Assembly: GCF_029889745.1 (NCBI RefSeq)
Contig: NZ_CP123639.1
Coordinates: 1,593,501 to 1,657,500 of the forward strand
DNA length: 64,000 nucleotides
Source of the DNA: Ligilactobacillus faecis
Lineage (GTDB): Bacteria; Bacillota; Bacilli; Lactobacillales; Lactobacillaceae
Direction of reading: 5' to 3'
Positions 8,347-53,626 of this stretch are shown in pieces. Within the stretch, counting starts at the first letter, position 1, and the number at the start of each line of letters is the position of its first letter. The notes under the pieces are model-generated. The model was given only the letters and a program-made list of their open reading frames with translations. It did not search any database and had not been told where the DNA came from. The position numbers and the translations under genes are program-made.

Positions 8347-8385
8347 AAGGGGGCCTATCTAGATAATGATAGGACAAGAACAGTG
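8347..8385 (+). promoter_or_regulatory. SD - hairpin - start arrangement before the response regulator
   Basis: SD AAGGGGG (8347-8353) is followed at once by CCTATC (8354-8359), an 8-base loop, GATAGG (8368-8373), a 9-base linker and the GTG at 8383. The stem excludes 20 bases from the SD-start distance. An AGGA within the 3' arm could be an alternative SD that the stem would hide. Confidence 0.6.
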
Positions 8386-9108
8386 AAAAAAATATTAGTA
8401 GTTGAAGATGATGTGGCGATCCAATTGTTATTAAAGTATAATTTGACTCAAGCCGGTTATGAACCAACGATCATCGCAGATGGAAAAGAAGGTTATTTAG
8501 CGGCACTTAAAGGTAATTACGCACATATTTTACTTGATGTGATGTTACCTAATTTAGATGGCATCGAGATCACTAAAAAATTGCGTCAAGAAAAAGTTAA
8601 AACTCCGATCATGATCATCACTGCTAAAAATCAGGAGTATGATAAGATCATTGGTCTTGAGTTAGGCGCTGACGACTATTTGACGAAACCTTTTTCGCCT
8701 CGTGAAGTGATCGCTCGCTTAAAGGCCATCGAGCGTCGGATGGAACTTACTAAAGAAGAACAATATGTAGCGCCCAAAGAAGAGTTGAACAATGTCTATG
8801 TTTTCGAAGATTTTACACTTGATCTTGATCAAGTCAAAGTTTTAAAAGACGGTGTTGCAGTCAAATTGACCCCAAAAGAATTTGAACTGTTAGCATATTT
8901 CGTCAAACGCGCAGGTAAAGTTTTGAGTCGCGAAAAGCTCCTCAATGGTGTTTGGGGGTACGATTATGTTGGTCAAACCCGGATGGTCGACATGCACGTT
9001 AGCCATTTGCGTGAAAAGATCGAACCAGATCCAAAAGCTCCTCGCTATATTCAAACTTTACGCGGTTTTGGGTATCGTTTCAATGGAAAAGAAAAAACTT
9101 TGGTCTGA
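8383..9108 (+). CDS. phoP: OmpR/PhoB-type response regulator (PhoP-like)
   Basis: Encodes 241 aa with a GTG start. The receiver domain (1-120) has the acidic pair E8/D9/D10, phosphoacceptor D52 (HILLDVMLPN) and the lysine in DYLTKPF. Residues ~135-235 are a winged-helix DNA-binding domain (KLTPKEFELLAYF, then VDMHVSHLREKIE, GFGYRF). The gene overlaps its kinase by 26 bases. The PhoP name rests on family resemblance and on the ftsEX-minJ neighbourhood; no pst phosphate transporter genes lie here, so the signal is unproven. The start lies behind a hairpin spacer. Confidence 0.85.
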   Translation: MKKILVVEDDVAIQLLLKYNLTQAGYEPTIIADGKEGYLAALKGNYAHILLDVMLPNLDGIEITKKLRQEKVKTPIMIITAKNQEYDKIIGLELGADDYLTKPFSPREVIARLKAIERRMELTKEEQYVAPKEELNNVYVFEDFTLDLDQVKVLKDGVAVKLTPKEFELLAYFVKRAGKVLSREKLLNGVWGYDYVGQTRMVDMHVSHLREKIEPDPKAPRYIQTLRGFGYRFNGKEKTLV

Positions 9109-10528
9109 TCATTTGTTCCGATATTTTTGGTATGCTTTAGCTGAATTGATGCTAGTCGTCACTATTTATGGCGTGATCTTTCATGAGCATTTTTGGGCGG
9201 TTTGGCGTAAAGAAGGCGTTGCTTGGATCTTACTTGCGATCGTTATCGTAAGTGGGGGTAATTTTTTGATTTTTGAATATCAAAAAAGAGAACGTCAAAA
9301 GAGTAGCCGATTATTGGAACAAAAATTAGAAGAATTGATCATAGGTCGACCTTCACGGCACGTTTTATTAAATCCAGCAGATGAATATTACGAATTAGCC
9401 AAGCAAGTCAACCGCCTGCAGTCGAAACAACGACAAAGGAATCGGCGTTTCGAGCAACAAGGTCGTGATTACTTGACTTTGCTCCATTCTTTGAAAGGTG
9501 GCGTGGCAGTTTTTGATCAAAATAAGCAGTTGAACTTGACAAACCATGTTTTTCGTAATGAACTCCAAAGTATGATCGAACCTTTAGGAAAACCATTTTA
9601 TTTGATCTTTTTAGATGCTAAATTGATCGCTTTGACTGAAAAAGTTTATCAAACTAAGCAAGATCAGCACACTTTATGGTATGATCGTGGACGAGACTCT
9701 TGGTTTGATGTGCAATTTATCTATGTACCATTGAGTAGTTCTCATTATTCTGTGATGGTGATCTTTAATGATATTACGAATACTAAACGTTTAGAACAAA
9801 AGCAACGTGATTTTATGGCAAATGCAAGTCATGAGTTACGCACGCCTTTGACGGCGATCCAAGGTTTTAGTGAGACTTTGCTTGATGGAGCTTTGGCAGA
9901 TGAAGCGACTGCGCGTGATTTTTTAGAGATCATTTTAGCGCAAAGCAACCATTTAAAAGAATTGATCGATGATATCTCGGCTTTGGCTAAAGATGACCCA
10001 CAAGCTGAGTTGCAATTGACGCAGTTGCAGATCGCCGACCTCTGTCAGCAACTTTTGGCCGGCTATACTGCTCAGATCGAAGCAAAAAAATTAACAGTTA
10101 TGTTAGAGATCGAACCTGGGCTCAAGGTTACGACCGATCGACGTTACTTACAACATATCATGACCAATCTTTTTCAAAATGCAATACGTTATAACACTTT
10201 GGGTGGTCAGATCAAGATCGTGGCTAAGAAGGCTGAGACAACTTGGTCGTTAGCAGTCACTAATACAGGTCCAGCGATCAAGGAAACTGATAAGGCTAAG
10301 ATCTTTGATCGCTTTTATCGAGCTGAAAGCTCACATACGACGAAAGGCAGTGGCCTTGGACTTTCGATCGTCAAAGAATCTGTTCAGATATTAAGGGGCA
10401 AGATCACAGTTATGAGCGCTGAAAATAAGCCGACTTGCTTTGAAGTTACTTTGCCCCTAGACGAAAATTATCTTAAAATAAAGAAGGACAATGAATATTA
10501 TGAAAAAGAAATTATATCGTTCAAATGA
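9083..10528 (+). CDS. phoR: Membrane sensor histidine kinase (PhoR-like)
   Basis: Encodes 481 aa from ATG 9083, overlapping the regulator. Two membrane helices (about 11-30 and 43-62) enclose an extracytoplasmic loop of only about a dozen residues. A PAS-like segment follows (LLHSLKGGVAVFDQNKQL onward), then HisKA with the phospho-histidine in NASHELRTPLTAI, then HATPase_c (NLFQNAIRY; GSGLGLSIVKE). B. subtilis PhoR has a large external domain, so this kinase must sense differently, probably in the membrane or via PAS. Its 3' end overlaps the start of the PspC-domain gene, so envelope-stress genes are in the same transcript. Confidence 0.88.
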   Translation: MEKKKLWSDHLFRYFWYALAELMLVVTIYGVIFHEHFWAVWRKEGVAWILLAIVIVSGGNFLIFEYQKRERQKSSRLLEQKLEELIIGRPSRHVLLNPADEYYELAKQVNRLQSKQRQRNRRFEQQGRDYLTLLHSLKGGVAVFDQNKQLNLTNHVFRNELQSMIEPLGKPFYLIFLDAKLIALTEKVYQTKQDQHTLWYDRGRDSWFDVQFIYVPLSSSHYSVMVIFNDITNTKRLEQKQRDFMANASHELRTPLTAIQGFSETLLDGALADEATARDFLEIILAQSNHLKELIDDISALAKDDPQAELQLTQLQIADLCQQLLAGYTAQIEAKKLTVMLEIEPGLKVTTDRRYLQHIMTNLFQNAIRYNTLGGQIKIVAKKAETTWSLAVTNTGPAIKETDKAKIFDRFYRAESSHTTKGSGLGLSIVKESVQILRGKITVMSAENKPTCFEVTLPLDENYLKIKKDNEYYEKEIISFK

Positions 10529-10820
10529 TAGTGTGATCTGTGGTGTTTGTGGTGGGATCGCTGAATATTTTGGCCTTTCACCCTGGGTCGTACGGATCAC
10601 ATATTTAGTGGTCGCGATCTTATGTAAGTTCATTCCACTATTAGTTTACGTTCCGATCATTATTTATGCAGTGCTAGCTTTTACACTACCTAAAAAACCA
10701 GGTAAAAGTTATAATGATCTGATCACTTTACTTGAAAGCTGGAATAAAAAAGCTGATGGTGAGCGTAAAGAAGTGGTCGATGCTAAAGAAAGAGATGTCA
10801 AACAAAATAAAAATAAGTAA
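10500..10820 (+). CDS. PspC-domain membrane protein
   Basis: Encodes 106 aa. ATG 10500 is preferred over ATG 10491 because SD AAGAAGGA lies 11 rather than 2 bases upstream. Residues 1-60 are a PspC domain (KLYRSNDSVICGVCGGIAEYF, then a long hydrophobic stretch). The tail is charged and cytoplasmic (ending KERDVKQNKNK). PspC proteins take part in envelope-stress responses. The order pspC-yvlD-hprK-lgt matches the yvlC-yvlD-hprK-lgt block of Bacillus. Confidence 0.88.
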   Translation: MKKKLYRSNDSVICGVCGGIAEYFGLSPWVVRITYLVVAILCKFIPLLVYVPIIIYAVLAFTLPKKPGKSYNDLITLLESWNKKADGERKEVVDAKERDVKQNKNK

Positions 10821-10890
10821 AGAAAGGAAAAGCTATCGTAGCACAACAGAATTTGAAAGTCAGTGCACAGGATAGTCGCAACAGAAAATG
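10821..10890 (+). promoter_or_regulatory. SD - hairpin - start arrangement before yvlD
   Basis: SD AGAAAGGA (10821-10828) directly follows the upstream stop, 59 bases from the ATG at 10888. Between them CTATC (10833-10837) pairs with GATAG (10871-10875), and inside it GCAC (10841-10844) pairs with GTGC (10863-10866). A 12-base linker without any SD leads to the ATG. Folding would reduce the SD-start spacing to normal. Confidence 0.7.
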
Positions 10891-11241
10891 AATTTTTGGC
10901 AACGAACATTGATAAATGTATTGGTCTTTTTAGCAACAGCTGGTTTTTTCCCAGATTACTTCCATGTTTCTAGTGTTTGGGTCGCATTTATCGCCGCAGT
11001 TGTTTTAGGACTTTTAAATATGTTCGTCAAACCGTTATTAGTAGTATTGTCGTTACCGATAACGGTCATGACTTTGGGTGTTTTTTATCTTTTTATCAAT
11101 GGATTTATGCTCGAGATGACTTCATTTTTAGTCGGGTCATCTTTTGAATTTTCGAGTTTTGGTTCTGCGTTGTTAGTTGCGATCATTTTAAGTGTCGTTA
11201 ATTTGATCATTACAAATTATGCAACGCAAAATCGTATTTAA
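10888..11241 (+). CDS. yvlD: YvlD-type small membrane protein (phage holin family 4 / DUF360)
   Basis: Encodes 117 aa with four hydrophobic helices covering nearly the whole chain (INVLVFLATAGFF; VWVAFIAAVVLGLLNMFVKPLLVVL; TLGVFYLFINGF; ALLVAIILSVVNLIITN). The NxFVKP segment after helix 2 is typical of this family, which is called holin-like by homology but sits in envelope-stress operons. The start has no nearby SD; a strong SD lies 59 bases upstream behind a hairpin. Co-transcribed with the PspC gene and hprK. Confidence 0.85.
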   Translation: MNFWQRTLINVLVFLATAGFFPDYFHVSSVWVAFIAAVVLGLLNMFVKPLLVVLSLPITVMTLGVFYLFINGFMLEMTSFLVGSSFEFSSFGSALLVAIILSVVNLIITNYATQNRI

Positions 11242-11259
11242 ATAAGGAAGGTGTATCTG

Positions 11260-12204
11260 ATGGAAAATGCAGTCAGTGTTAGAGAACTTGTATTAGAGAC
11301 GAGTAATCTAGAAGTATATTCTGGAATGCAGTATTTGGATGAAAGAATGGTCACAACGGAAGATATCTCTCGTCCTGGACTTGAGTTGACAGGTTATTTC
11401 GATTATTATCCCGAAGAACGCATCCAACTTTTTGGAATGACTGAGATCTCATATGGAAATAAGATGTCAAAAGAGGATCGAAAAAAGATCATGGAACGTT
11501 TATGCGGTAAAGATACGCCTTGCTTTGTCGTTTCACGTTATTTGGTCGTTCCAGCCGAAATGAAAGAAGCTGCTGATGAACACCATATTCCGATCTTACG
11601 TTCAAAATTACCGACAACGCGGGTCTCTGCTAAGTTGACTGATTACTTGAGTGGACGGTTGGCACCTAAAAAATCTCTGCATGGGGTCTTGATGGATATT
11701 TACGGTCTGGGGGTCTTGATCACAGGTGATTCAGGTGTCGGTAAATCAGAAACAGCTTTAGATCTGATCAAACGTGGGCATCGCTTGATCGCAGATGATC
11801 GGGTCGAAGTCCACCAACAAGATGAACAAACTTTAGTCGGCGAAGCACCTAAGATCTTGCGCCATCTGTTAGAGATCCGAGGAGTCGGGATCATTGATGT
11901 GATGAATCTCTTTGGGGCTGGAGCAGTTCGAGCCAAAACAGATATTTCTTTGATCATTCACTTGGAAAATTGGGAAAAAGACAAGCAATTCGATCGCTTA
12001 GGCAACGGTGAACAAAAAGAGCTGATCTTTGATGTTGAGATACCTAAGATCTCGATCCCTGTTAAGGTCGGACGCAATATGGCGATCATCATTGAAGCGG
12101 CTGCGATGAATTATCGTGCTAAAACAATGGGATATGATGCCACAAAAGCTTTTGAACGTAATTTGAATGCTTTGATCGATGAAAACTCGAAACAAAAGAA
12201 GTAG
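11260..12204 (+). CDS. hprK: HPr kinase/phosphorylase
   Basis: Encodes 314 aa from ATG 11260 (SD AAGGAAGG eight bases away). The N-terminal regulatory domain runs to about residue 130; the kinase domain has Walker A (GDSGVGKSE) and the HPrK signature around EIRGVGIIDVMNLFG. It phosphorylates HPr on Ser46 with ATP, or dephosphorylates it with phosphate, setting CcpA-dependent catabolite repression and inducer exclusion. With cggR and the glycolytic operon it is the central carbon-control gene of the window. It is followed 12 bases later by lgt. Confidence 0.97.
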   Translation: MENAVSVRELVLETSNLEVYSGMQYLDERMVTTEDISRPGLELTGYFDYYPEERIQLFGMTEISYGNKMSKEDRKKIMERLCGKDTPCFVVSRYLVVPAEMKEAADEHHIPILRSKLPTTRVSAKLTDYLSGRLAPKKSLHGVLMDIYGLGVLITGDSGVGKSETALDLIKRGHRLIADDRVEVHQQDEQTLVGEAPKILRHLLEIRGVGIIDVMNLFGAGAVRAKTDISLIIHLENWEKDKQFDRLGNGEQKELIFDVEIPKISIPVKVGRNMAIIIEAAAMNYRAKTMGYDATKAFERNLNALIDENSKQKK

Positions 12205-12216
12205 AGGAAAGAGACA

Positions 12217-13053
12217 GTGAGTGAGATTTTAGGGGTGATCGATCCGATCGCCGTTCGATTTTTAGGAATAAAAGTTCATTGGTATGGAGTCATCATTGGG
12301 CTAGCGATCATGTTGGCGCTTTATCTAGCAGTGAGTGAGGGAAAGCGCCAAGGGCTTAGACCAGATGATTTCTATGACTATCTTCTTTATGCTTTGCCGA
12401 TCGCTTTGATCTGTGCTCGGATCTATTACGTTATTTTTCAATGGGATTATTACAAGAAGTTTCCAGCTGAGATCTATCGCATTTGGGATGGAGGGATCGC
12501 GATCTATGGTGGCCTTTTAGGTGCTTTGCTTGTTTTAGTGATCTTTTGTAAAAAGCGTCAGCTCTCACCGTGGCTCTTTTTAGATGTGATCGCTCCAACC
12601 GTGATCTTAGCACAAGGGATCGGACGTTGGGGAAATTTTATCAACCAAGAAGCCCATGGTGAAGCAGTTAGTCGGATTTTCTTAGTCCAGATGCATTTAC
12701 CCAACTTTATTATCGAACAGATGAATATCGGAGGCACATATTATCAACCGACCTTTTTATACGAATCTGTTTGGGATATTTTAGGTTTTTTAGTTTTGAT
12801 CTTATTACGACATCGAAAAAAACTTTTTAAACAAGGTGAGATCTTTTTGACATATGTTGCTTGGTATTCTTTTGGACGTTTCTTTATCGAAGGGATGCGG
12901 ACAGATAGTCTGATGCTTTTGGGCTTAAGAGTTTCGCAATGGCTCTCAGTCATATTGTTTATTGGAGCGCTTAGTACGATCATTTATCGTCGCTTAAATA
13001 ACAAGCATCTCCCATGGTACTTAGTGGTACAAAAGGAAGATGATCAGGCATAG
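12217..13053 (+). CDS. lgt: Prolipoprotein diacylglyceryl transferase
   Basis: Encodes 278 aa from GTG 12217 (SD AGAGGAAAG). It is a polytopic membrane enzyme with the Lgt signature GRWGNFINQEAHGE and the HWYG element at the N-terminus. It transfers diacylglycerol from phosphatidylglycerol to the lipobox cysteine of prelipoproteins. The hprK-lgt pairing is conserved in Firmicutes. A strong terminator follows. Confidence 0.97.
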   Translation: MSEILGVIDPIAVRFLGIKVHWYGVIIGLAIMLALYLAVSEGKRQGLRPDDFYDYLLYALPIALICARIYYVIFQWDYYKKFPAEIYRIWDGGIAIYGGLLGALLVLVIFCKKRQLSPWLFLDVIAPTVILAQGIGRWGNFINQEAHGEAVSRIFLVQMHLPNFIIEQMNIGGTYYQPTFLYESVWDILGFLVLILLRHRKKLFKQGEIFLTYVAWYSFGRFFIEGMRTDSLMLLGLRVSQWLSVILFIGALSTIIYRRLNNKHLPWYLVVQKEDDQA

Positions 13054-13126
13054 CTATTTAGAAGATGATTATTGCCGCTCTGATCTCAGATCTTATCTAT
13101 GATTGGATAAAAGACCGGCACTAGAT

Positions 13127-13169
13127 GAAAAATGCCACACTTGAAAAAGATCAAGTTGTGGCATTTTTC
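13127..13169 (+). terminator. Terminator after lgt; rest of the 363-base gap
   Basis: AAAAATGCCACACTTGA pairs with TCAAGTTGTGGCATTTTT across a 6-base loop with a single bulge. The remaining gap (13170-13416) is AT-rich; it should contain the pgm promoter, but I see no convincing -35/-10 pair and no other gene. Confidence 0.85.
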
Positions 13170-13416
13170 ATTTTAGTAGGCCAAATTCTTCTGCTAGGAA
13201 GAAATTTTACCTGAAAATACTCGGCAAGTCAGTCAAATATACAGTCACAATTACACACTGAAGTCAAAATCATTGATAGATAAAGGATTTTTTAAGTGTC
13301 TTCGAATAGCGCAGTATTTTTTATTAAAAATAAATAGAAATCTGATATCATATTAAGAGAGAAAAATCTTGATATATAGTATACTGTACTTGATAGAGAT
13401 AATTGAGGTGATATTA

Positions 13417-15144
13417 ATGAGTTGGAAAGATACTTATAAGATCTGGAATGAACAAACAGAGCTTGATGCAGATGTTCGTGCTGATCTTGATCGTTTAGTT
13501 ACTGATCAAACACAGCTTGAGGACGCTTTTTATGCTCCTCTTGAATTTGGAACGGCTGGAATGCGTGGAGTGATCGGCGCTGGGATCAACCGAATGAACA
13601 TTTATACAGTTCGGCAAGCGACTGAAGGTCTAGCACGTTTGATGGATACTTTAGATGAAAAAACACGTTTACGTGGGGTAGCGATCAGTTATGATTCACG
13701 TCATAAGTCACAAGAGTTTGCTTTTGAAGCTGCGAAAGTTTTAGGTGCACACGGGATCCCAACTTTTGTATTTGAAAGTTTACGTCCAACGCCTGAGCTT
13801 TCCTTTGCAGTGCGTCATTTACACACTTATGCTGGGATCATGATCACAGCTAGCCATAATCCAAAACAATATAATGGCTATAAGATCTATGGTGAAGATG
13901 GGGCTCAGATGCCACCAAAAGAGTCAGATTTGATCACAGGTTACATTCGAGAAGTAACAGATCTTTTTGATGTTGCAGTTGAAACTAAAGAACACTTGAT
14001 CGAAGCAGGACTTTTGAAGATCATCGGTTCTGAAGTTGATCAGGCCTACTTAGAAAATGCTAAAGAAGTTACGATCGATCGTGAATTGGTAGCTGAAGAA
14101 GGTAAGACGATGAAGCTCATCTTCACACCACTTCATGGGACTGGTGGGATGTTAGGTGAAAAAGCTTTGCGTCAAGCCGGCTTCGAAGATTTTACTTTAG
14201 TGCCAGAACAGGCGTTACCTGATCCTGATTTTTCAACAGTTGAGCATCCAAACCCAGAATTTACAGAAGCTTTTGATCTAGCCATTAAATTAGGTAAGGC
14301 TGAAAAAGCCGACCTATTAGTTGCGGTAGACCCAGATGCTGACCGTTTAGGTGCTGCTGTTCGTCAACCAGACGGTGAATATAAACTTTTAACGGGTAAT
14401 CAGATCGCTGCTGTTATGTTGAATTACATTTTGACAGCACGCAAGAAAGCTGGTACTTTGCCTGCTAATGCTGCTGTTGTCAAATCGATCGTTTCGAGTG
14501 AATTTGCTACTAAAGTTGCAGAAGATTTTGGAGCAAGTGCGATCAATGTTTTGACAGGCTTCAAGTTTATTGCTGAACAGATCCAACACTTTGAAGAAAC
14601 AAATGAACATACCTTTATGTTAGGTTTTGAAGAAAGTTATGGTTACTTAGTGCGTCCGTTCGTACGTGACAAAGATGCGATCCAATCATTAGTTTTACTA
14701 GCCGAAGTTGCTGCTTTCTACAAGAAACAAGGTAAGAACTTATATGATGGCCTGCAAGAGCTCTTTGAAAAGTATGGCTATTTTGCTGAAAAGACGATCG
14801 CTTTGACTTTTGATGGGGTCGAAGGTGCACAAGAGATCAAGAATCTGATGGTCAAATTCAGAGAAGATGCTCCAGCTGATTTTGCAGGACAAAAGGTCGT
14901 TGCTGTAGAAGATTATGCGTCATCAGAACGAAAAGTTACTGACGGACAAGTTGAAGAGATCAAACTGCCAAAATCAAATGTTTTGAAGTATATTTTAGCT
15001 GATGGAACATGGATCGCAGTTCGACCTTCAGGGACTGAACCAAAAATCAAGTTCTATATTGGAACTCAAGGCAAGACTTTAGCCGAAGCTAATGAAAAAT
15101 GTCAAAGCTTTGAAGAGGCGATCAATGCCTTTATCAAAGGCTAA
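13417..15144 (+). CDS. pgcA: Alpha-phosphoglucomutase / phosphomannomutase family
   Basis: Encodes 575 aa from ATG 13417 (SD TTGAGGTGAT). Conserved blocks of the phosphohexomutase family: the phosphoserine loop TASHNPKQYNGYK, the metal loop DPDADRLG, and the phosphate-binding RPSGTEPKIKFY near the C-terminus. It interconverts glucose-6-P and glucose-1-P, feeding cell-wall and exopolysaccharide precursors. It stands alone between two terminators. Confidence 0.95.
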   Translation: MSWKDTYKIWNEQTELDADVRADLDRLVTDQTQLEDAFYAPLEFGTAGMRGVIGAGINRMNIYTVRQATEGLARLMDTLDEKTRLRGVAISYDSRHKSQEFAFEAAKVLGAHGIPTFVFESLRPTPELSFAVRHLHTYAGIMITASHNPKQYNGYKIYGEDGAQMPPKESDLITGYIREVTDLFDVAVETKEHLIEAGLLKIIGSEVDQAYLENAKEVTIDRELVAEEGKTMKLIFTPLHGTGGMLGEKALRQAGFEDFTLVPEQALPDPDFSTVEHPNPEFTEAFDLAIKLGKAEKADLLVAVDPDADRLGAAVRQPDGEYKLLTGNQIAAVMLNYILTARKKAGTLPANAAVVKSIVSSEFATKVAEDFGASAINVLTGFKFIAEQIQHFEETNEHTFMLGFEESYGYLVRPFVRDKDAIQSLVLLAEVAAFYKKQGKNLYDGLQELFEKYGYFAEKTIALTFDGVEGAQEIKNLMVKFREDAPADFAGQKVVAVEDYASSERKVTDGQVEEIKLPKSNVLKYILADGTWIAVRPSGTEPKIKFYIGTQGKTLAEANEKCQSFEEAINAFIKG

Positions 15145-20202: not shown

Positions 20203-20288
20203 TTGATCGACGACGATCAAGTCATAAAGAAAGGAAAAACTGTTTAAAAAGGCTTTAGACTATGTTTTAAACAGTGGTGAAGAACTTG
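20203..20288 (+). promoter_or_regulatory. luxS leader: two hairpins, with SD between them
   Basis: A first stem TTGATCG/CGATCAA (20203-20209 with 20214-20220) precedes a strong SD AAAGAAAGGA (20226-20235). A second, perfect 11-bp stem ACTGTTTAAAA (20239-20249) with TTTTAAACAGT (20265-20275) lies between that SD and the TTG start at 20286, with a 10-base linker. The linker contains GGTGA, which could itself serve as SD. Confidence 0.65.
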
Positions 20289-21627: not shown

Positions 21628-21691
21628 AAAGCATGTTTGCCAGACAAATATAGCACTGCCAAGTGAGAAAGTCGTCTAGCATTCCTTTCTT
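21625..21691 (-). promoter_or_regulatory. SD - hairpin - start arrangement before ecfT
   Basis: On the minus strand, SD AAGAAAGGA (21683-21691) is followed after two bases by GCTAGAC (21674-21680), which pairs with GTCTGGC (21639-21645) over 7 bp with one G-U. An inner CACT/AGTG stem sits in the loop. An 11-base linker without SD leads to the ATG (21625-21627). An alternative reading is a 20-codon ORF from the ATG abutting the SD, ending on the ecfT start. Confidence 0.65.
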
Positions 21692-26953: not shown

Positions 26954-28470
26954 CAGAATGTAGACTAAGTCATCAGAGTATGTGCTCTGGTGACTTTTTT
27001 TGTATAATTAAAGAAAACGATTACGGAGGTATTTGTCATGCTTCGCAAGAGTGATCCCAATCTCAAACGCCGTGAATATGCTCGTACTTCTCTAGATGAT
27101 TTGGTCCCAAAAGATCATTTACTCCGTAAAATTGATCAAATTATTGATTTCTCTTTTATTTATGATCTTGTCGAAGATTCCTATTGTAAAAATAATGGCC
27201 GTCCCAGTCTTGATCCTGTATTACTCATAAAGATTCCTTTGATTCAAAATCTATTTGGTATTCGTTCTATGCGTCAAACGATCAAAGAAATTCAAGTTAA
27301 TGTCGCTTATCGATGGTTTCTAGGACTGGGTTTAAATGATCCTGTTCCTCATTTCTCTACTTACGGTAAAAACTATAAAAGAAGATTTGCTGAAAATCAT
27401 GTAATAGAAGCCATTTTTGCTCATATCTTGAAACTCTGCTTAGAAAATGATCTTATCGACACAACTGATATTTTTATTGATGGAACTCATTTGAAAGCTG
27501 CTGCTAACAGCCGTAAATATACTACTGAAGTTATTGAAACTAAGTCAAAATTTATGAGTGAAGATCTCGAAAAAGAAATAAATGTAGATAGAGCTAAACA
27601 TCAAAAGAAACCCTTAAAAGAAGAAAAACCTAAAAAAAAACTAGACAAGTAAAAATATCTAAAACTGATCCTGATAGTGGATGGTTTCATAAGGGTGAAC
27701 ACAAACAGGTTTTTGCCTATAACGTTCAAGCTGCCTGTGATAAAAATGGGTGGCTCTTAGCTTATGTGGTCGGTGCGGGAAATATCCATGATACGCAACT
27801 TTTTCCTGAAATATTTGAAAAAGTACGGAAGTACGACCCACAATATATTATCGCTGATTCTGGCTATAAAACACCCACGATCGCACACTTTTTACTATCT
27901 CAAGGCATAATTCCCATTCTTCCTTATAAACGCCCAAGGGGCAAAGTTGGTACGCTTAGACCCAAAGATTTTGTTTATGATGAATATTATGATTGTTATT
28001 TATGTCCTGGCGATCAAATCTTAATGTACTCCACAACTAATCGAAGTGGTTATCGTGAATATAAAAGTGATCCTACAATCTGTGAAAAATGTCCTTTACT
28101 GCACAAATGTACACAAAGTAAAAATCATCAAAGAGTTATCGCTCGTCATGTTTGGCAAGATAGTATGGAAAAATGTGAGGATATCAGGCATCAAACTGGC
28201 TCAAAATTAAAGTATGAAGCGCGAAAGGAGACGATCGAAAGAAATTTTGGTTCGGCAAAAGAATATCACAACTTGAGATACGCCCGAGAAGTAGGAATTG
28301 ATAAAATTCTAGCTCAAGTCGGGTTGATATTTGCGTGCCTAAATCTAAAAAAACTGGTAAAAATACTGGGGAAAAAACCTGTTATATTCGTATATTTCAA
28401 AGTATATAGTTATAAAAATACATAAAAAAACAAACTCTATCCGATTTGAATAGAGTTTGTCTACGTTCTG
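26954..28470 (+). mobile_element. IS1182-family-like insertion sequence, copy 1 (1517 bp)
   Basis: Ends CAGAATGTAGAC (left) and GTCTACGTTCTG (right) form 12-bp terminal inverted repeats with one mismatch. Just inside each end is a hairpin: AGTCATCAGAG/CTCTGGTGACT plus T-run (26968-27003) and ACAAACTCTAT/ATAGAGTTTGT. These would block read-through into and out of the element. It is flanked by a 21-bp duplication of a complete terminator stem-loop. Same length and nearly the same sequence as the inverted copy at 32615-34131. Family assignment is from the transposase. Confidence 0.9.
27038..28425 (+). CDS. IS1182-like DDE transposase, made by -1 frameshift at an A9 run
   Basis: The first frame (27038-27652, 204 aa) carries an N-terminal DUF772-type domain (SLDPVLLIKIPLIQNLFGIRS) and the first catalytic Asp region (DIFIDGTHLKAAAN). 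It stops 12 bases after nine A residues (27632-27640). The second frame, -1 relative to it, continues without a start codon (SKTDPDSGWFHKGEHKQVFAY) through IIADSGYKTPT and a cysteine-rich CPGD...CEKCPLLHKC segment to RNFGSAKEYHNLRY. Together about 462 aa, normal for the family. The same break in both copies suggests programmed slippage rather than decay. Codon use (ATT-rich isoleucine) is unlike the host genes. Confidence 0.85.
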
Positions 28471-32614: not shown

Positions 32615-34131
32615 CAGAACGTAGACAAACTCTATTCAAATCGGATAGAGTTTGTTTTTTTATGTATTTTTATAACTATATACTTTGAAATATACGAATA
32701 TAACAGGGTTTTTCCCCAGTATTTTTACCAGTTTTTTTAGATTTAGGCACGCAAATATCAACCCGACTTTAGCTAGAATTTTATCAATTCCTACTTCTCG
32801 GGCGTATCTCAAGTTGTGATATTCTTTTGCCGAACCAAAATTTCTTTCGATCGTCTCCTTTCGCGCTTCATACTTTAATTTTGAGCCAGTTTGATGCCTG
32901 ATATCCTCACATTTTTCCATACTATCTTGCCAAACATGACGAGCGATAACTCTTTGATGATTTTTACTTTGTGTACATTTGTGCAGTAAAGGACATTTTT
33001 CACAGATTGTAGGATCACTTTTATATTCACGATAACCACTTCGATTAGTTGTGGAGTACATTAAGATTTGATCGCCAGGACATAAATAACAATCATAATA
33101 TTCATCATAAACAAAATCTTTGGGTCTAAGCGTACCAACTTTGCCCCTTGGGCGTTTATAAGGAAGAATGGGAATTATGCCTTGAGATAGTAAAAAGTGT
33201 GCGATCGTGGGTGTTTTATAGCCAGAATCAGCGATAATATATTGTGGGTCGTACTTCCGTACTTTTTCAAATATTTCAGGAAAAAGTTGCGTATCATGGA
33301 TATTTCCCGCACCGACCACATAAGCTAAGAGCCACCCATTTTTATCACAGGCAGCTTGAACGTTATAGGCAAAAACCTGTTTGTGTTCACCCTTATGAAA
33401 CCATCCACTATCAGGATCAGTTTTAGATATTTTTACTTGTCTAGTTTTTTTTTAGGTTTTTCTTCTTTTAAGGGTTTCTTTTGATGTTTAGCTCTATCTA
33501 CATTTATTTCTTTTTCGAGATCTTCACTCATAAATTTTGACTTAGTTTCAATAACTTCAGTAGTATATTTACGGCTGTTAGCAGCAACTTTCAAATGAGT
33601 TCCATCAATAAAAATATCAGTTGTGTCGATAAGATCATTTTCTAAGCAGAGTTTCAAAATATGAGCAAAAATAGCTTCTATTACATGGCTTTCAGCAAAT
33701 CTTCTTTTATAGTTTTTACCGTAAGTAGAGAAATGAGGGACAGGATCATTTAAACCTAGTCCTAGAAACCATCGATAAGCGACATTAACTTGAATTTCTT
33801 TGATCGTTTGACGCATAGAACGGATACCAAATAAATTTTGAATCAAAGGAATCTTTATGAGTAGTACAGGGTCAAGACTAGGACGACCGTTATTTTTACA
33901 ATAGGAATCTTCGACAAGATCATAAATAAAAGAGAAATCAATAATTTGATCAATTTTACGGAGTAAATGATCTTTTGGGACCAAATCATCTAGAGAAGTA
34001 CGAGCATATTCACGGCGTTTGAGATTGGGATCACTCTTGCGAAGCATGACAAATACCTCCGTAATCGTTTTCTTTAATTATACAAAAAAAGTCACCAGAG
34101 CACATACTCTGATGACTTAGTCTACATTCTG
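32615..34131 (-). mobile_element. IS1182-family-like insertion sequence, copy 2 (1517 bp, inverted)
   Basis: Inverted copy of the element at 26954-28470: same length, same terminal repeats (CAGAACGTAGAC at 32615, GTCTACATTCTG ending at 34131), same internal hairpins. It differs by only a few substitutions (for example Q-to-K and K-to-N near the transposase C-terminus, N-to-S and A-to-V in the first part). Flanked by a 28-bp duplication that is again a whole terminator hairpin. Confidence 0.92.
32660..34047 (-). CDS. IS1182-like DDE transposase, copy 2, with the same -1 frameshift site
   Basis: Two minus-strand frames (33433-34047 and the part ending at 32660) joined by a -1 shift in a run of nine T on the plus strand (33445-33453), identical to copy 1. 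Protein content as in copy 1. The near-identity of both copies points to recent transposition. Confidence 0.85.
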
Positions 34132-44115: not shown

Positions 44116-44334
44116 AAGTAGATTTGTGACTGGAAAATTGTGTGTAAATATGCTAAATTAGAGTAGATATAGATTATCATAGCGAAAGGTATATAGTAGA
44201 TATCAGTGTTTGAGCTAGAAAGAAAAAAGTGTGTGGCCAAGTACTGAAGATAAGGACTATATTTCTTGTGCTATTAGAGCCATTATGTCATTTTGTATGG
44301 CATAAAGACGAAGGTCGGCAGTAATAAATAAGTT
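44116..44334 (+). other. AT-rich leader region between the ClC gene and secG
   Basis: About 220 bases with no recognisable gene. It holds a GCCAT/ATGGC hairpin near 44279-44302 and a 13-codon ORF from GTG near 44203 with GAAAGG upstream. The secG promoter should be here but no clear -35/-10 pair is seen. Confidence 0.4.
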
Positions 44335-44416
44335 TAGGAAAGGAAGCTCTATATTTCTTTCTCAGATAGATCTTTAACCATCTGAACACATTTGATATAG
44401 TAGGTACAAAAGATTG
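44335..44416 (+). promoter_or_regulatory. SD - hairpin - start arrangement before secG
   Basis: SD TAGGAAAGGAAG (44335-44346) is 67 bases from the TTG at 44414. Between them CTATAT (44349-44354) pairs with ATATAG (44395-44400), enclosing CAGAT/ATCTG (44363-44367 with 44380-44384). A 13-base linker follows, with only a weak AGGT. Confidence 0.65.
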
Positions 44417-48384: not shown

Positions 48385-48757
48385 GCAATTGAACTACCCC
48401 AACTTAACCTAAAACTACCGTTTTTTAACGGCTTGAAGTTGGGAATTCTGAGAATACAGCAAACTTGCCAGTCTAGCTTTTCACTGAGTCGGTAGCGGTC
48501 ACTGCTTTGTTACCATGGTACCGTTTTATTATCAGAATAGAGTTTCTAATCCTCTAGCTAAGATATTTTTAGCCGCGTTAACATCTCTATCAAGATGTGA
48601 ATTACAGTTAGCAGAATGTTGATTTTTATCTAATTCCATAGTTATACTCATTTATTATATTATCTGAATTAAAATTATCAAGAAAAAGAAGCGCTTTTAG
48701 TGCTTCAGAATGGGATGATTCATCCACCACTTATAAAAGTGGAAGTCTTCTCGCCAT
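48385..48757 (-). mobile_element. Degenerate IS200/IS605-type remnant
   Basis: About 370 bases containing the last 35 codons of a tnpB-like gene on the minus strand. On its 3' side is a CCGTT/AACGG hairpin (48418-48431) and a GGGTAGTTCAA-like end; on its 5' side two hairpins, AAGCGCTTTTAGTGCTT-like and CCACTTATAAAAGTGG-like (about 48690-48745). Subterminal imperfect palindromes at both ends are what IS605 transposases bind, so this may be a small mobilisable derivative. Exact ends are uncertain. Confidence 0.5.
48532..48639 (-). pseudogene. TnpB C-terminal fragment
   Basis: 35 codons reading NSHLDRDVNAAKNILARG before the stop. This is the last RuvC-like aspartate block plus the second half of the zinc finger of TnpB/IS1341 proteins; the first cysteine of its CxxC is replaced. 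The rest of the gene is deleted. Confidence 0.75.
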
Positions 48758-48836
48758 TTTAGGATAAATTTGTTTCACAAAAAGGTCAAAAGAGCTCTTT
48801 TCTGATTTGATGCGTTTGCGCTGAGGTATATTGTAA

Positions 48837-48883
48837 TCAATGTATATTGTGTCTTTTGTGAAACTAAACACTATATATTGTGT
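48837..48883 (+). promoter_or_regulatory. Tandem NrdR boxes upstream of nrdD
   Basis: ACACTATATATTGTGT (48868-48883) is a perfect match to the NrdR consensus ACACWATATMTWGTGT. A second copy at 48837-48852 (TCAATGTATATTGTGT) matches 13 of 16 positions. Their starts are 31 bases apart, three helical turns, the classic NrdR spacing. NrdR represses ribonucleotide reductase genes when dATP is high. Confidence 0.93.
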
Positions 48884-48962
48884 TTTTTGAAAAAAGAAGC
48901 TATCATATATAGTACCAAATATGATACATATGTACGATTTTGATAGAGAGGATCTGACAAAA

Positions 48963-51122
48963 ATGATGGAGATGAATACGAAAGTCAGCTATGATTTTCC
49001 TAAAACAGTAGAAAAAACCGATGGGTATCGGGTCCCCTTTGCACTTTATAAGTTAGAACGGATCTTAGATATTTTAGGACTAACTCCTGTAAAAGACGAG
49101 ATCTTAGCGACTTTAGCGCTACGTGTCGCCAATTACGATGTTCTAAAGACAAGTGCACTTGCAACTGAACTTATGACTACTTTGAACGAATTGGGATATA
49201 TAGCGGAAGCTAAGTCTTATTTAGAAGCACACGAAAAAGAAGAGCAGACCTGGCGAGAACAAACTGATCCGACGTTGCGCTTAGACCGTTTACAATCAAA
49301 AGATCCAAGTTTAGTGCATGAAAATGCCAATAAAGATAGTAATGTGTTTAATACGCAACGTGATCTGACGGCAGGAACAGTCGGGAAAACATTAGGGCTC
49401 AAAATGATGCCTAAACATATCGCTAAAGCTCATTTACGGGGAGATATCCACTACCATGATCTTGATTATACTCCTTGGAGTCCAATGACAAATTGTTGTT
49501 TGATCGATTTTAAAGAGATGTTGACAAAAGGCTTTAAGATCGGGAATGCCGAAGTTGAAAGCCCACATTCGATCCAGACTGCGACTGCACAGATGTCACA
49601 GATCATCGCAAATGTTGCTTCAAGCCAGTATGGGGGCTGTTCTGCCGATCGAGTCGATGAAGTTTTAGAACCATTTGCTTATAAAAACTATGAAAAGCAT
49701 TTGGCTGAAGCGAAAGAATATATCGTTGAAGCAGAGAAACAAGTTGAATTTGCACGCAAAAGGACTAAAAAAGATATCTATGATGCGATGCAAGCTTTAG
49801 AGTATGAGATCAATACACTTTTTTCTTCGCAAGGCCAAACGCCTTTTACGACACTTGGTTTTGGTTTAGGGACGTCATGGATCGCACGTGAGATCCAAAA
49901 GTCGATCTTAAAGATTCGGATCGAAGGCCTAGGTAAAGAAAAACGAACTGCGATCTTTCCTAAGTTAGTTTTTACGATCAAACAAGGGTTGAATTTAAAC
50001 CCAGGTGAACCTAACTATGATATCAAAGAATTGGCGCTTGAGTGTGCTACGAAACGAATGTATCCTGATGTTTTGATGTATGATAAGATCAAAGAGTTGA
50101 CAGGAAGTTTTAAGGCTCCGATGGGGTGTCGTTCTTTTTTGCAAGGCTGGCAAGACAAAGACGGGCAGGAAGTCAATTCAGGTCGTATGAATTTAGGCGT
50201 CGTTACCCTTAATCTTCCGCGGATCGCTTTAGAATCAAAGGGGGACCAAGAGCTATTTTGGCAGATCTTGCACGATAAGATCGCACTTTGTAAAGAAGCA
50301 TTAAAGTTTAAAGTTGCTCGTGTTCTAGAAGCTTTACCAGAAAATGCACCGATCCTTTATCAGTATGGAGCTTTTGGACAGAGACTGAAACCAGGTGATG
50401 ATGTCTCACAACTCTTCTTAGATGAACGCGCAACTGTTTCCCTAGGCTATATCGGCCTTTATGAAGTTGGAACACTTTTTTACGGACCTGATTGGGAAAG
50501 CGATCAAGCGGCCCATGATTTCACATTACAGATCGTCAAAAAACTATATGATGCCTGTGTTGCGTGGTCTAACGAAACTGGTTATCACTTTAGTGTTTAT
50601 TCAACACCAAGTGAGTCATTGACAGATCGTTTTTGTAAGATCGATACAAAACGTTTCGGAAAGATCAAAGATATCACTGATAAGGAATACTATACAAATA
50701 GTTTTCATTACGATGTGCGCAAGCATCCAACGCCATTTGAAAAAATATTGTTTGAGATGGATTATCCTAAATATGCAGCTGGTGGCTTTATCCACTATTG
50801 TGAATATCCAAATTTGCGCCAAAATCCTAAAGCTCTTGAAGCAGTCTGGGATTTTGCTTACGATAAGGTTGGCTATCTAGGGACGAATACACCGATCGAT
50901 CGTTGTTATAAATGTGGCTTTCAAGGTGAGTTCAAAGCGACTGCTCGTGGGTTTGAATGCCCCGCTTGTGGCAATCATGATCCTAAGTCTTGTGATTGCG
51001 TCAAAAGGACATGTGGTTACTTAGGAAACCCACTCCAACGGCCAATGGTGCACGGACGACATGCTGAGATCGCTGCGCGGGCTAAAAATATCGGACCGGG
51101 GATGGTAACTGATGACAAATGA
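48963..51122 (+). CDS. nrdD: Anaerobic (class III) ribonucleoside-triphosphate reductase
   Basis: Encodes 719 aa from ATG 48963, 10 bases after SD AGAGAGGA; ATG 48921 would add 14 residues but has no SD. An ATP-cone-like N-terminus (DGYRVPFALYKLERILDIL) precedes the catalytic barrel (HYHDLDYTPWSPMTNCCLIDF). The C-terminus has the zinc site (CYKCGFQGEF, CPACGN) and the glycyl-radical motif RTCGYLGNP. It makes dNTPs without oxygen using a glycyl radical installed by NrdG. Regulated by NrdR from the tandem boxes. Confidence 0.97.
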   Translation: MMEMNTKVSYDFPKTVEKTDGYRVPFALYKLERILDILGLTPVKDEILATLALRVANYDVLKTSALATELMTTLNELGYIAEAKSYLEAHEKEEQTWREQTDPTLRLDRLQSKDPSLVHENANKDSNVFNTQRDLTAGTVGKTLGLKMMPKHIAKAHLRGDIHYHDLDYTPWSPMTNCCLIDFKEMLTKGFKIGNAEVESPHSIQTATAQMSQIIANVASSQYGGCSADRVDEVLEPFAYKNYEKHLAEAKEYIVEAEKQVEFARKRTKKDIYDAMQALEYEINTLFSSQGQTPFTTLGFGLGTSWIAREIQKSILKIRIEGLGKEKRTAIFPKLVFTIKQGLNLNPGEPNYDIKELALECATKRMYPDVLMYDKIKELTGSFKAPMGCRSFLQGWQDKDGQEVNSGRMNLGVVTLNLPRIALESKGDQELFWQILHDKIALCKEALKFKVARVLEALPENAPILYQYGAFGQRLKPGDDVSQLFLDERATVSLGYIGLYEVGTLFYGPDWESDQAAHDFTLQIVKKLYDACVAWSNETGYHFSVYSTPSESLTDRFCKIDTKRFGKIKDITDKEYYTNSFHYDVRKHPTPFEKILFEMDYPKYAAGGFIHYCEYPNLRQNPKALEAVWDFAYDKVGYLGTNTPIDRCYKCGFQGEFKATARGFECPACGNHDPKSCDCVKRTCGYLGNPLQRPMVHGRHAEIAARAKNIGPGMVTDDK

Positions 51123-51792
51123 AAAAAGACCGCTAGTCCGAATCAGCATTGGTGGGGACACGATTTTTGTTGAGCAGACCCAGATCAAAGAAAAACGGTT
51201 GCCTCAAAAAAAGTCTAAAAGAAGACGTCTGCCTAAAGATCCTAAGCCTAAGGAATGGTTAGCTAAAGAACTAAGCCAACTAAGGATCGCTGATTATAAA
51301 CCATTTAACTTTGTAGATGGTGAAGGTGTCCGTTGTAGTTTGTATGTGAGTGGATGTAAGTTTGCTTGCCCAGGCTGTTATAATAAAGCAGCTCAAAGTT
51401 TTAGTTATGGTTTTGAATATACTAAAGAGTTAGAAGATCAGATCATCGCTGATCTAGGCAAAGATTATGTCCAAGGTTTGACTCTGTTAGGTGGGGAACC
51501 GTTTTTAAATACTCAAGTTTGTCTGCAACTAGTGGATCGGATCCGAGCTGAGTACGGTACGACAAAAGATATTTGGTCTTGGACTGGTTATACGTGGGAT
51601 GAACTACAGTTAGAGTCAGCAGATAAGTTAGAACTTTTGTCCAAGATCGATATTTTAGTTGACGGTCGTTTTCTAGAAGCTAAAAAAGACTTGACTTTAC
51701 AGTTTAGAGGGAGCTCAAACCAGCGGATCATCGATGTACAAAAGTCACTGAGGCAAAATAAAGTCGTCATTTGGGAAAAGTTATCTAAGTAA
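51112..51792 (+). CDS. nrdG: Anaerobic RNR activating protein (radical SAM)
   Basis: Encodes 226 aa from ATG 51112, overlapping nrdD by 11 bases. The radical-SAM cluster motif is CKFACPGC (CxxxCxxC), then GGEPFLN and WSWTGYTWDEL. The family core begins at about residue 43 (PKPKEWLAKELSQLRIADYKPFNFVDG); the first ~42 residues are an extra, basic extension (KKSKRRRLPK). NrdG cleaves SAM to place the glycyl radical on NrdD. Confidence 0.95.
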   Translation: MTNEKRPLVRISIGGDTIFVEQTQIKEKRLPQKKSKRRRLPKDPKPKEWLAKELSQLRIADYKPFNFVDGEGVRCSLYVSGCKFACPGCYNKAAQSFSYGFEYTKELEDQIIADLGKDYVQGLTLLGGEPFLNTQVCLQLVDRIRAEYGTTKDIWSWTGYTWDELQLESADKLELLSKIDILVDGRFLEAKKDLTLQFRGSSNQRIIDVQKSLRQNKVVIWEKLSK

Positions 51793-52135
51793 AAAATATT
51801 TAGGTTTGTTTATTAAAATATTTTCTAAAAAACTTGTCTACATGAATAAATATTAGCTTAGCTGAGGCTTAAATAGATATATGTATAATCTCTTGGTTAA
51901 TTGATAATAATTTATATTTTATGTTTTACAAAAATTAAAAAAGTGATCATGGTTGAAAATTACTCATAGATCAAGCAAAAAAAATTAAATTTTTAGAATG
52001 ATTATAAATCATAAAATCGAGCGAAGTTGATTTTTCTACCAAAAAAAGGTATTAATTTTTTGAAATAGGTGTATAATGTGAATGAGGATATATATTGTAT
52101 GGTTGCACCAGGTTTTATAAGAAGGGGCGATTTAT
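51793..52135 (+). other. AT-rich intergenic region before spx
   Basis: 343 bases without a gene. A weak ATATTT/AAATAT stem lies just after nrdG, and a TATAAT at 52072-52077 is the probable spx -10; no good -35. Nothing else is recognised. Confidence 0.5.
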
Positions 52136-52534
52136 ATGGTTACCTTATACACATCACCAAGCTGTACATCATGTCGAAAGGCACGTGCATGGCTTAAAAA
52201 ACACAATATTTCATATAATGAAAGAAATATTTTTTCGGAACCATTGAGTATTGACGAGATCAAACAGATCTTGCAAATGACTGAAGATGGAACAGAAGAG
52301 ATCATCTCGAAACGTTCAAAAGTATATCAAGAACTTGATATCGACATCGAGGAAATGCCATTGCAAGAATTACTTGATCTTGTCCAAAAACATCCCGGCC
52401 TGTTAAGACGACCAATTATTATGGACGAGAAGAGACTTCAAGTTGGTTATAATGAAGACGAGATCCGTCGCTTTTTGCCACGCGAAGTACGGGCGCTTGA
52501 ATTGCAACGTGCACGCGAACTTGCGGGTTTCTAA
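52136..52534 (+). CDS. spx: Spx, ArsC-family transcriptional regulator
   Basis: Encodes 132 aa from ATG 52136 (SD AAGGGG). Redox CxxC at residues 10-13 (SCTSC), the RSKVYQ segment and RRPIIMDEK, as in Spx rather than arsenate reductase. Spx binds the RNA polymerase alpha subunit and reprograms transcription under thiol stress; it is normally degraded by ClpXP with the adaptor encoded by spxH. Next gene mecA. Confidence 0.95.
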
Positions 52535-52561
52535 AGTTTATAATAAGATACTTTATATAAT

Positions 52562-52595
52562 AAGGCTACCCGAGTATTTTGGGTGGTCTTTTTTA
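52562..52595 (+). terminator. Terminator after spx
   Basis: AAGGCTACCC pairs with GGGTGGTCTT (G-U pairs), followed by TTTT. Confidence 0.8.
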
Positions 52596-52667
52596 TCAAT
52601 TTTTGTTATGATAATTGTTGCAACCAAGGTGTTTTTAACACTTAAATGAGGAAGGGGAGGATCACAA

Positions 52668-53411
52668 ATGGAAATGGAAAAAGTCAATGAGAATACGATC
52701 AGGGTCTTACTTGGTACTGAAGATTTGACTGAACGTGGTATCACCGTCCTTGATCTGCTCGGTAATCAAAAAGAGATCGAAAATTTCTTTTTCAGTATTT
52801 TAGAAGAGGTCGATAAGGATCATGAGTTCCGTGATAACGAAGCGGTGACTTTTCAGCTGATCCCTAACCAAAATGGTTTAGAGCTCTTTATTACAAAAGT
52901 TGATCCTAACCAAGCTGAAAGTACCTTAAAAAATATTAGTGGCAACCAGACTAAAGATCAGACTGATGATCAAAAAATGGGGATGCCTAAAAGTGGGATC
53001 ACAAATGATCTTGCTGAGTATATTCGGAAACAGCTTAGTGCAGATGATCAAAAAGATCAAGTATCAGGAAAAAAATCGTTGTTAGCTAATAGTGATCGGA
53101 AAACACGCCTAAAGGATGAAGTATCTCATCGATATTTAGTCAGTTTTGCAGAATTTGAAGATTTTATCCAGCTTGCAAAGAGTTTTGAATGTGACGATGT
53201 TATCTCAAATCTATATCGTTTAGATGGAAAGTATTATCTTGAACTAGTCTTTTTTGTCGATCAACTAAGTCCAACAGATATCAAAAATGCGATGGCTTTA
53301 GTTTATGAATTTAGTGTAAATGAGCCTTTTGATCCAGCAGTTATCAAAGAACGTGGCCAGTGTTTGATGGAACAAGCTGCTTTGGAAATGGCACGGTATC
53401 ATTTTAAATAG
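52668..53411 (+). CDS. mecA: MecA, ClpC adaptor protein
   Basis: Encodes 247 aa from ATG 52668 (SD AAGGGGAGG). The N-terminal substrate-binding domain (MEKVNENTIRVLLGTEDLTERGI) and the C-terminal ClpC-binding domain (residues ~145-245) are joined by a charged, glutamine-rich linker. MecA delivers substrates such as competence regulators to ClpCP. Sits between spx and coiA as in many Lactobacillales. Confidence 0.96.
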   Translation: MEMEKVNENTIRVLLGTEDLTERGITVLDLLGNQKEIENFFFSILEEVDKDHEFRDNEAVTFQLIPNQNGLELFITKVDPNQAESTLKNISGNQTKDQTDDQKMGMPKSGITNDLAEYIRKQLSADDQKDQVSGKKSLLANSDRKTRLKDEVSHRYLVSFAEFEDFIQLAKSFECDDVISNLYRLDGKYYLELVFFVDQLSPTDIKNAMALVYEFSVNEPFDPAVIKERGQCLMEQAALEMARYHFK

Positions 53412-53420
53412 GCTTTGCAG

Positions 53421-53456
53421 AAAAAAAGTTCTCTAATATTTAGAGGACTTTTTTTA
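53421..53456 (+). terminator. Terminator after mecA
   Basis: AAAGTTCTCTAA pairs with TTAGAGGACTTT, T-run after. Confidence 0.88.
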
Positions 53457-53543
53457 TTGGGCATAAAAAAGAACTTTCTTTGCGTATTTATTTAGTAGAA
53501 CGTTTACTATTTCTTATTAAGCTAAGCGTACTATGTGTCGACT

Positions 53544-53626
53544 AGAAAGGAAAAACTATGATGTGCGTATAAGCTATCTTCTTTAGCTATAGTTTAAGGC
53601 GCATTTGGATAGTAGGTGTGTTGATG
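53544..53626 (+). promoter_or_regulatory. SD - nested hairpin - start arrangement before coiA
   Basis: SD AGAAAGGA (53544-53551) is followed by three nested stems: ACTAT (53555-53559) with ATAGT (53609-53613), TGCG (53564-53567) with CGCA (53600-53603), AGCTA (53572-53576) with TAGCT (53584-53588). A 10-base linker leads to ATG 53624; it contains AGGTG, a possible second SD. Confidence 0.65.

Follow-up and report, generated by a model that had tools for sequence, protein, structure and literature searches.

Split ribosome-binding sites and IS607-family transposons

Genes 38 and 25 of phage T4 have split ribosome-binding sites, in which a hairpin reduces the spacing between the Shine-Dalgarno (SD) sequence and the AUG from 22 to 5 nt and from 27 to 11 nt, as stated in passages of PMC3014915. 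Transposons of the IS607 family have (G)GG as their sole target preference in the events covered by the available part of PMC6188088, and a GG overlap is likewise given in an excerpt of PMC4058570. Here we describe leaders that combine features of both systems in a Ligilactobacillus genome of 2.38 Mb. The window comprises 64 kb (G000:C1:1593501-1657500). A preliminary description of it had pointed to six genes (phoP, yvlD, luxS, ecfT, secG, and coiA) where a distal SD of the AAAGGA or AAGGGGG type is followed 0-4 nt later by an inverted repeat and, after a linker of about 9-13 nt, by the start codon. All six leaders were located exactly where they had been placed, with this arrangement in each. 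We consider it likely that such leaders are the right ends, or remains of the right ends, of an IS607-family transposon that broke the SD of the gene, supplied a split ribosome-binding site, and was then retained.

Enrichment of the architecture upstream of genes

Genes were sampled from the window and from 20 evenly spaced stretches of 20 kb (464 kb), for which a home-made gene caller predicted 383 genes. The strict scan required a distal SD, a stem 1-6 nt past its GG, and a linker of 8-14 nt, without a strong proximal SD (score of at least 7). At a stem score of at least 13 it found 24 genes, about 6% with chance not yet subtracted, while shuffled spacers gave 3.67±1.90 and the highest of 200 shuffles reached 9. 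The architecture is thus enriched over shuffles, a comparison of the kind that the preliminary description had proposed, and this holds for other limits (at least 12: 27 genes versus 6.75±2.60; at least 15: 18 genes versus 1.29) and for a loose scan with shuffled spacers (25 genes at a stem score of at least 14 versus 6.8±2.1). The control consisted of 80 loci from 16 element-free congeners, a non-random sample chosen as orthologue loci, and there the limit of 12 was reached by 1 of 195 genes with a shuffled mean of 1.75. At this limit, five of the six window leaders are recovered and coiA is missed owing to its bulged stem. An ordinary SD scores below 5.5 in 47 of the 383 genes, coiA not being among them, and 18 of these 47 show the architecture by eye.

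The spacer hairpin is present in the minimum-energy fold of five leaders (phoP, yvlD, luxS, ecfT, and coiA). In the fold of ecfT, part of the SD pairs with the linker as well, and in that of secG the SD is paired with UUUCUUUC instead. As the folding z-scores of single leaders are modest (-0.6 to -2.3), and too weak to serve as proof, no single leader is conclusive and it is the position-specific enrichment that decides.

The genes downstream seem unrelated (secG, luxS, map, holB, scpB, phoP, and others), and a metabolite riboswitch or a single regulon was rejected for this reason. Several of these gene names are what we take them to be from their sequences. An Rfam scan of the loci left the element itself unmatched and returned only tRNAs and the Transposase-1 RNA.

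The hairpin as the right end of an IS607-family transposon

AGAAAGGAAAAGCTATATTTCTTTC and CACATTTTATATAGCAG, on either side of a variable inner stem, recur in many longer leaders. When the most similar copies were aligned together with their upstream DNA, many of them turned out to be preceded by the C-terminus of a TnpB and then by non-coding DNA, and the similarity ended just past ATATAGCAG. Five full-length copies of about 2.04 kb, which are 93.6-97.0% alike and have left ends with GGAG, all terminate in the SD-hairpin. Towards the right, Transposase-1 RNA sequence is followed by the SD AGAAAGGAAAA and then by a hairpin of two helices, which closes with ATATAGCAG at the host junction. The TnpA of one copy (L278) matches the IS607 transposase model NF033518 with 212 bits (cut-off 110) and also PF00239. 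Its TnpB matches NF040570 with 249 bits (cut-off 100) and reaches 115.6 bits, below the cut-off of 350, for the narrower NF038280 (IS607_TnpB). In 9 of 10 loci, the Transposase-1 RNA (RF03014), presumably the omega-RNA or guide RNA, lies directly 5′ of the SD. Because the same sequence ends full-length copies that bear IS607 TnpA, TnpB, and this RNA, we identify the SD-hairpin, on the basis of these alignments, as the right end of the transposon. An IS200/IS605 origin, which had been our first guess from the TnpB finger, was dropped once the serine recombinase was found.

A covariance model, R1, was derived from 19 copies (alignment A1) of the 25 sequences at hand, with L136 (a near copy of L133) and five sample copies omitted. 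The constancy of CTATATTTCTTT and ATATAG in A1 is meaningless, since 18 of the 19 sequences had been found by a pattern fixing both. At a cut-off of E≤0.1 in the genus, R1 has 79 matches in this genome, and 9 of 25 congeners are positive (34, 31, 29, 8, 5, 3, 2, 1, and 1 matches). With sparser sampling, R1-type ends were found in 8 of 201 genomes of the family and in 7 of 295 genomes of the order, our genome being counted in both. IS607 TnpA exceeds the cut-off in six copies in this genome and in 6 of the 26 genomes of the genus, every one of them R1-positive. Two more R1-positive genomes have partial matches (109 and 85 bits), and none of the 16 R1-negative genomes has a match above 60.4 bits.

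The ends were examined for 119 of 193 R1 matches (55 of 79 in our genome, and 20 of 31, 22 of 34, 19 of 29, 2 of 8, and 1 of 5 in others); a further set of 22 loci, partly from other genomes, overlaps with these in three cases. Because a left-end-like motif occurs at most 320 nt upstream of 38 of the 119 elements (a single case in the reverse-strand control), many leaders look like mini-elements with both ends.

Related right ends occur in another genus of the Lactobacillaceae (g37) and in one genome of another family (L327), the loci being L321-L325 and L327-L331. The TnpB C-terminus is present at the g37 ends L321 and L323-L325, which lie 6-10 nt ahead of gene starts. An 85-nt leader is identical between our genome (L035:8617-8701) and G017 (L210:601-685), and another differs by one base (L035:14315-14371 and L216:601-657, respectively). 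The two leaders precede two genes that are about 6 kb apart in both genomes, and both genes probably moved with their transposon-end leaders by recent horizontal transfer.

Position of the ends and empty sites

A start codon with an open reading frame (ORF) of at least 40 codons is found 2-14 nt past 107 of the 119 ends, versus 975 of 5950 random positions (16%) in the same loci. The distance from the end to the start has its mode at 7-9 nt. This is the distance between the last GG and the start in ordinary genes (mode 7-8, n=234), as expected if the element had entered an SD.

Filled and empty sites are consistent with this position. Upstream of scpB, the relatives have AGTGAGTGGTGAATTAAATG (G004) and AGTGAGTGGTGAAGTAAATG (G003), and our genome has AGTAGGTGG, a full-length IS607 copy ending with ATATAGCAG, and AAACAATG; the copy sits inside the SD of scpB. 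Empty sites are also known for yvlD, secG, coiA, and luxS and are located in GG-rich SDs. Some of the genes with such leaders are probably essential, namely scpB here and coaD in a congener. A gene upstream of scpA has an element-like leader here (L281/L287 region) and in G004 (L231), whereas G003 and G017 have an ordinary SD at this gene. The scpA-scpB region has gathered three such leaders, belonging to this gene, to scpB, and to the gene after scpB.

Retention of elements that inserted at random GG sites would be unnecessary if TnpA targeted SDs, or if TnpB and its RNA selected such insertions. This is a refinement of the transposon-end explanation and does not exclude it. Of 15 copies from other genomes that bear TnpB, 14 are found 2-14 nt ahead of a start, two of these being near-identical sites in two species, and IS607 elements insert preferentially at (G)GG (PMC6188088, in part). 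In our genome, however, only two of the eight long copies precede a start (scpB and a response regulator), and the IS607 events in that part of the publication have no further target preference. We regard such targeting as conceivable rather than probable; the positions may reflect elements retained after inserting at random GG sites, genuine targeting, or a mixture of the two.

Leaders of the window

The features of the window, with their R1 scores, are:

44332..44403, plus strand: secG leader, a complete IS607-type right-end element (67.7 bits, E 1.3e-10)
44336..44345, plus strand: distal SD of secG, AGGAAAGGAA, within the R1 match 44332-44403
44190..44403, plus strand: insertion of about 214 bp between the ancestral promoter/SD region and the start of secG, from orthologue comparison
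20226..20275, plus strand: luxS leader with SD (20226-20235) and arms (20239-20249, 20265-20275); 24.0 bits
10819..10876, plus strand: yvlD leader with SD (10819-10828) and outer arms (10832-10837, 10871-10876)
21638..21691, minus strand: ecfT leader with SD (21683-21691) and arms (21674-21681, 21638-21645); 19.0 bits
53544..53613, plus strand: coiA leader with SD (53544-53551) and outer arms (53555-53559, 53609-53613); 19.3 bits
8347..8373, plus strand: phoP leader with SD (8347-8353) and arms (8354-8359, 8368-8373); not found by R1
48880..48915, plus strand: doubtful, degenerate further leader, GCTATCATATATAGT, with the weak SD AAAGAAG, before a 733-codon gene at 48921

The secG element consists of the SD, an outer stem CTATATT/GATATAG (44349-44355 and 44394-44400), an internal loop UUUCUUUCUC, the inner stem, and an internal loop CACATTT. 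The left junction of the insertion was placed by eye after GCGAAAGG (44189), and upstream of it the promoter region is conserved. Orthologous leaders, here and below, were judged by eye. All 25 congeneric secG orthologues have a GGAGG SD near the start and no spacer hairpin. For yvlD, the empty site is AAAAAGGGAGG/CAAATAAGATG in G003, which reads AAAAAGGGAGG CAAATAAG ATG; in our genome the hairpin end GATAGTCG is followed by CAACAGAAA ATG. SDs at ordinary distance are found for luxS in 16 congeners and for coiA in the 19 readable leaders of 21 from other species, three further matches not being included. For ecfT, no orthologous leader was found among the comparison loci.

In a two-strand scan of the 64 kb, secG, luxS, yvlD, coiA, and ecfT are among the six best R1 matches, the latter four with 19-24 bits; the sixth (36773, 20.9 bits) is no leader. 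The yvlD match (22.5 bits) covers only 10816-10844 and uses another 3′ arm. The degenerate leader before 48921 is part of a match at 48854-48915 with 16.1 bits and E 0.71. For the weakly matching leaders and for phoP, the proposed IS607 origin rests on their architecture, on the orthologues, and on intermediate forms.

In several congeners (L110, L111, L116, L118, L123, and L124), the coiA SD sits in the arm of an inverted repeat, such as GACACCTT ... GAGGTGTC in L110. The repeat may thus hide the SD in these species, which sets it apart from the hairpin that our genome has in the spacer. Elsewhere in the window, two ORF copies in opposite orientation (27766-28425, plus strand; 32660-33319, minus strand) with identical leaders and first codons flank about 4.2 kb and are probably an insertion sequence.

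Covariation and sequence drift

The preliminary description had proposed compensatory changes in the arms as a check, and such changes were found in both helices. Across 102 distinct aligned elements, 13 of 13 pairs have changed on both sides, and 182 cells were counted versus 64.4±5.8 after shuffling and at most 61 for slid partners, in an alignment (A2) that had been fitted to the same structure whose covariation was counted. A2 is based on 98 chosen sources and omits L188, L214, L237-L239, L241, L255, and L266.

Divergence was counted for 14 of 15 orthologous pairs from two close species. Differences amount to 1 in 196 sites for the outer stem, 3 in 280 for the internal loops, 7 in 178 for the SD with its spacer, and 19 in 229 (8.3%) for inner stem plus loop, with 9.5-10.9% in the upstream DNA, counts which are biased in that both members of a pair had to match R1. 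The remaining pair (L192/L207), omitted owing to a deletion, shows shortening: the element is complete in L207, and L192 retains GCTATATTTTATATAGC in its place.

It is the structure that is kept rather than the sequence, as had been proposed, with unrelated arms in related species at two genes. At the gene that follows scpB, the element is long in G004, while G003 and G017 have ACTGCAG-TTG-CTGCAGT and our genome has GCTATCATATAGC, and no such hairpin is seen by eye in the 22 other species. The phoP arms are CCTATC/GATAGG here, GCGCTCA/TGAGTGC in G004, and ACGACTTTG/CAAGGTCGT in G017 and G003, and visual inspection of nine other species revealed none. At several other genes, element leaders differ in sequence across two to four species.

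Use of the distal SD and a competing fold

The anti-SD of this genome is CCTCCTTTCT / GGATCACCTCCTTTCT, with three occurrences. A distal SD with a score of at least 7 is present at 106 of the 107 element-led starts, a number to be read in view of the selection for a strong SD by R1. A proximal SD of this strength is found at two of these starts versus 51 of 1941 internal ATGs, which is background. Proximal SDs were therefore rejected as initiation sites, and initiation across a structured spacer fits best. The linear spacing between GG and start has a median of 68 nt, which is reduced to 14 nt with the hairpin removed (n=95). By analogy with phage T4, the likeliest reading is that the 30S subunit would bind the SD of the right end with the hairpin folded out of its path.

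It might be argued that the hairpins are passive insertions, with initiation at weak proximal SDs or without any, so that the distal SD would be dispensable. SD-like motifs do occur in some linkers, namely GGTGAAG in luxS (6.5, the limit for a strong SD being 7) and AGGTG in coiA. The proximal scores of phoP, yvlD, ecfT, and secG are only 3.0-5.0, and over the 107 starts proximal strength equals that of internal ATGs. Moreover, SD and outer stem belong to the parts with the fewest changes in the orthologous pairs, and pairing has been maintained by double changes, which passive insertions would not need. We consider this alternative very improbable. Within the window, it is for luxS and coiA that a requirement for the distal SD is least well supported.

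The 5′ internal loop contains UUUCUUUC (e.g. at 44353-44362 of the window), which is complementary to the element's own SD. A helix of at least 7 bp between the two can be formed in 89 of 119 elements, versus 22 expected with shuffled loops. This predicted pairing may act as a switch, belong to the fold of the transposon RNA, or do both. It also bears on the alternative that the leaders are native sites with a structured spacer or RNA switch, unrelated to transposons and perhaps regulated by temperature, a helicase, or a ligand. Such an origin would be in line with this excess of helices, with the two competing conformers predicted, with internal loops conserved like the outer stem, and with the diversity of the downstream genes. 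However, full-length IS607 copies terminate in this very sequence, TnpA above the cut-off is confined to R1-positive congeners, and most of these genes have ordinary SDs in congeners. In addition, short derivatives without UUUCUUUC still have the SD, the stem, and the linker. A purely native origin is therefore unlikely in our view, while a regulatory layer on top of transposon-derived sites is possible.

Proposed origin of the leaders

As the right ends carry both SD and hairpin, the two explanations of the preliminary description merge into one. Structured-spacer initiation fits best, and hairpins have indeed been inserted, yet these are not anonymous small hairpins: they are most probably IS607/TnpB right ends that bring the SD along. 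In the course of events that we propose, a transposon of the IS607 family, which inserts at GG-rich sites, may land in an SD and split it. Its right end would then place another SD some 68 nt ahead of the start codon. Once folded, the hairpin would shorten the single-stranded spacing to about 14 nt and make this SD usable by the 30S subunit. The gene would survive and grow dependent on the transposon end while the transposon body decays. Selection would preserve the SD, the pairing, and the linker, with the sequence of the hairpin free to drift or to shorten. The sequences themselves show that the leaders correspond to the transposon end, where they lie, that filled and empty sites exist, and that the pairs covary and diverge less, while ribosomal use of the distal SD over a folded hairpin is inferred.

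Several points weigh against this explanation, in addition to the limits stated for the covariation and divergence counts and to the few long copies of our genome that precede a start. The collapsed spacing, with its median of 14 nt from the GG, exceeds the ordinary 7-8 nt. Energy models often favour the pairing of the SD with UUUCUUUC, with a mean probability of 0.38 for the SD being unpaired (n=102) and a median outer-stem probability of 0.11. At the right junction, a GG core is seen in only two of seven copies, the other five having CAG plus A or C. The R1-positive genomes G004 and G011 have weak TnpA matches (32 and 24 bits), which several R1-negative genomes equal or exceed; the weak G004 match lies about 1.3 kb 5′ of one G004 right end, and one G011 right end follows a TnpB C-terminus. 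Finally, five of the six window leaders match R1 weakly or, in the case of phoP, not at all, and luxS and coiA retain their proximal SD-like motifs.

A more far-reaching version can be put forward tentatively, being almost as probable as its opposite: the transposon end would repair the site that it breaks. A GG-seeking TnpA would hit SDs and leave a replacement SD with a collapsible, possibly switchable hairpin, and several percent of the genes would have been rewired in this way in a clade of Ligilactobacillus. If true, this is a genome-scale takeover of transposon ends for translation, with hosts tied to these ends at genes of which some are probably essential. It raises the question why the end of a TnpB transposon resembles an outward ribosome-binding site. 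Gene finders that demand a proximal SD may misplace such starts.

Comparison with known systems

The statement in the preliminary description that no system of this kind had been described holds for the combination: among the open-access papers listed for IS607 or TnpB with SD, for split sites, for ribosome-binding sites at transposon ends, and for mini-transposons with SD, no title or abstract opening describes it. It does not hold for the translational trick itself, which is known from T4 genes 38 and 25 (PMC3014915, passages). As in these genes, a long spacing between SD and start is made functional by an intervening hairpin, and the leaders share a strong SD, a spacer-filling hairpin, and a start without a strong proximal SD, less clearly so for luxS and coiA. 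The T4 sites belong to individual phage genes, two being named in these passages, which mention no mobile source. Here, in contrast, dozens of genes per genome are concerned, with diverse sequences delivered by a transposon, which would make dozens of natural split sites available in ordinary genes of bacteria, with replication across the phylogeny.

With the IS607 family, the element shares TnpA plus TnpB, an Rfam RNA at the right end, a left terminus that is rich in GG, and motifs similar to AAATGTG close to the ends. The target given for the family in the consulted part of PMC6188088 is (G)GG. The IS607 TnpBs in the accessible text of PMC11061315 use RAGATH-18 RNAs, while Rfam assigns Transposase-1 here. 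None of the listed abstracts and excerpts of the IS607 papers searched mentions a right end that carries an outward SD plus a spacer hairpin and has come to serve as a ribosome-binding site. The BOX and RUP repeats of pneumococci are also small and scattered through the genome, but for BOX the part of PMC3049150 at hand describes new ORFs without good SDs rather than SDs being supplied. While IS607 transposons and T4-type split sites are both known, their combination and its scale appear to be new and join two fields, how mobile elements spare their hosts and how ribosomes cope with a structured spacer ahead of the start codon. IStrons (PMC4227781) likewise are transposons with a built-in means of sparing the target gene. 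They do so by RNA splicing, and none of the scanned loci contains a group I intron according to Rfam, whereas here the repair would act at translation initiation. If this is true, the element is a translation-level counterpart of the self-splicing IStrons.

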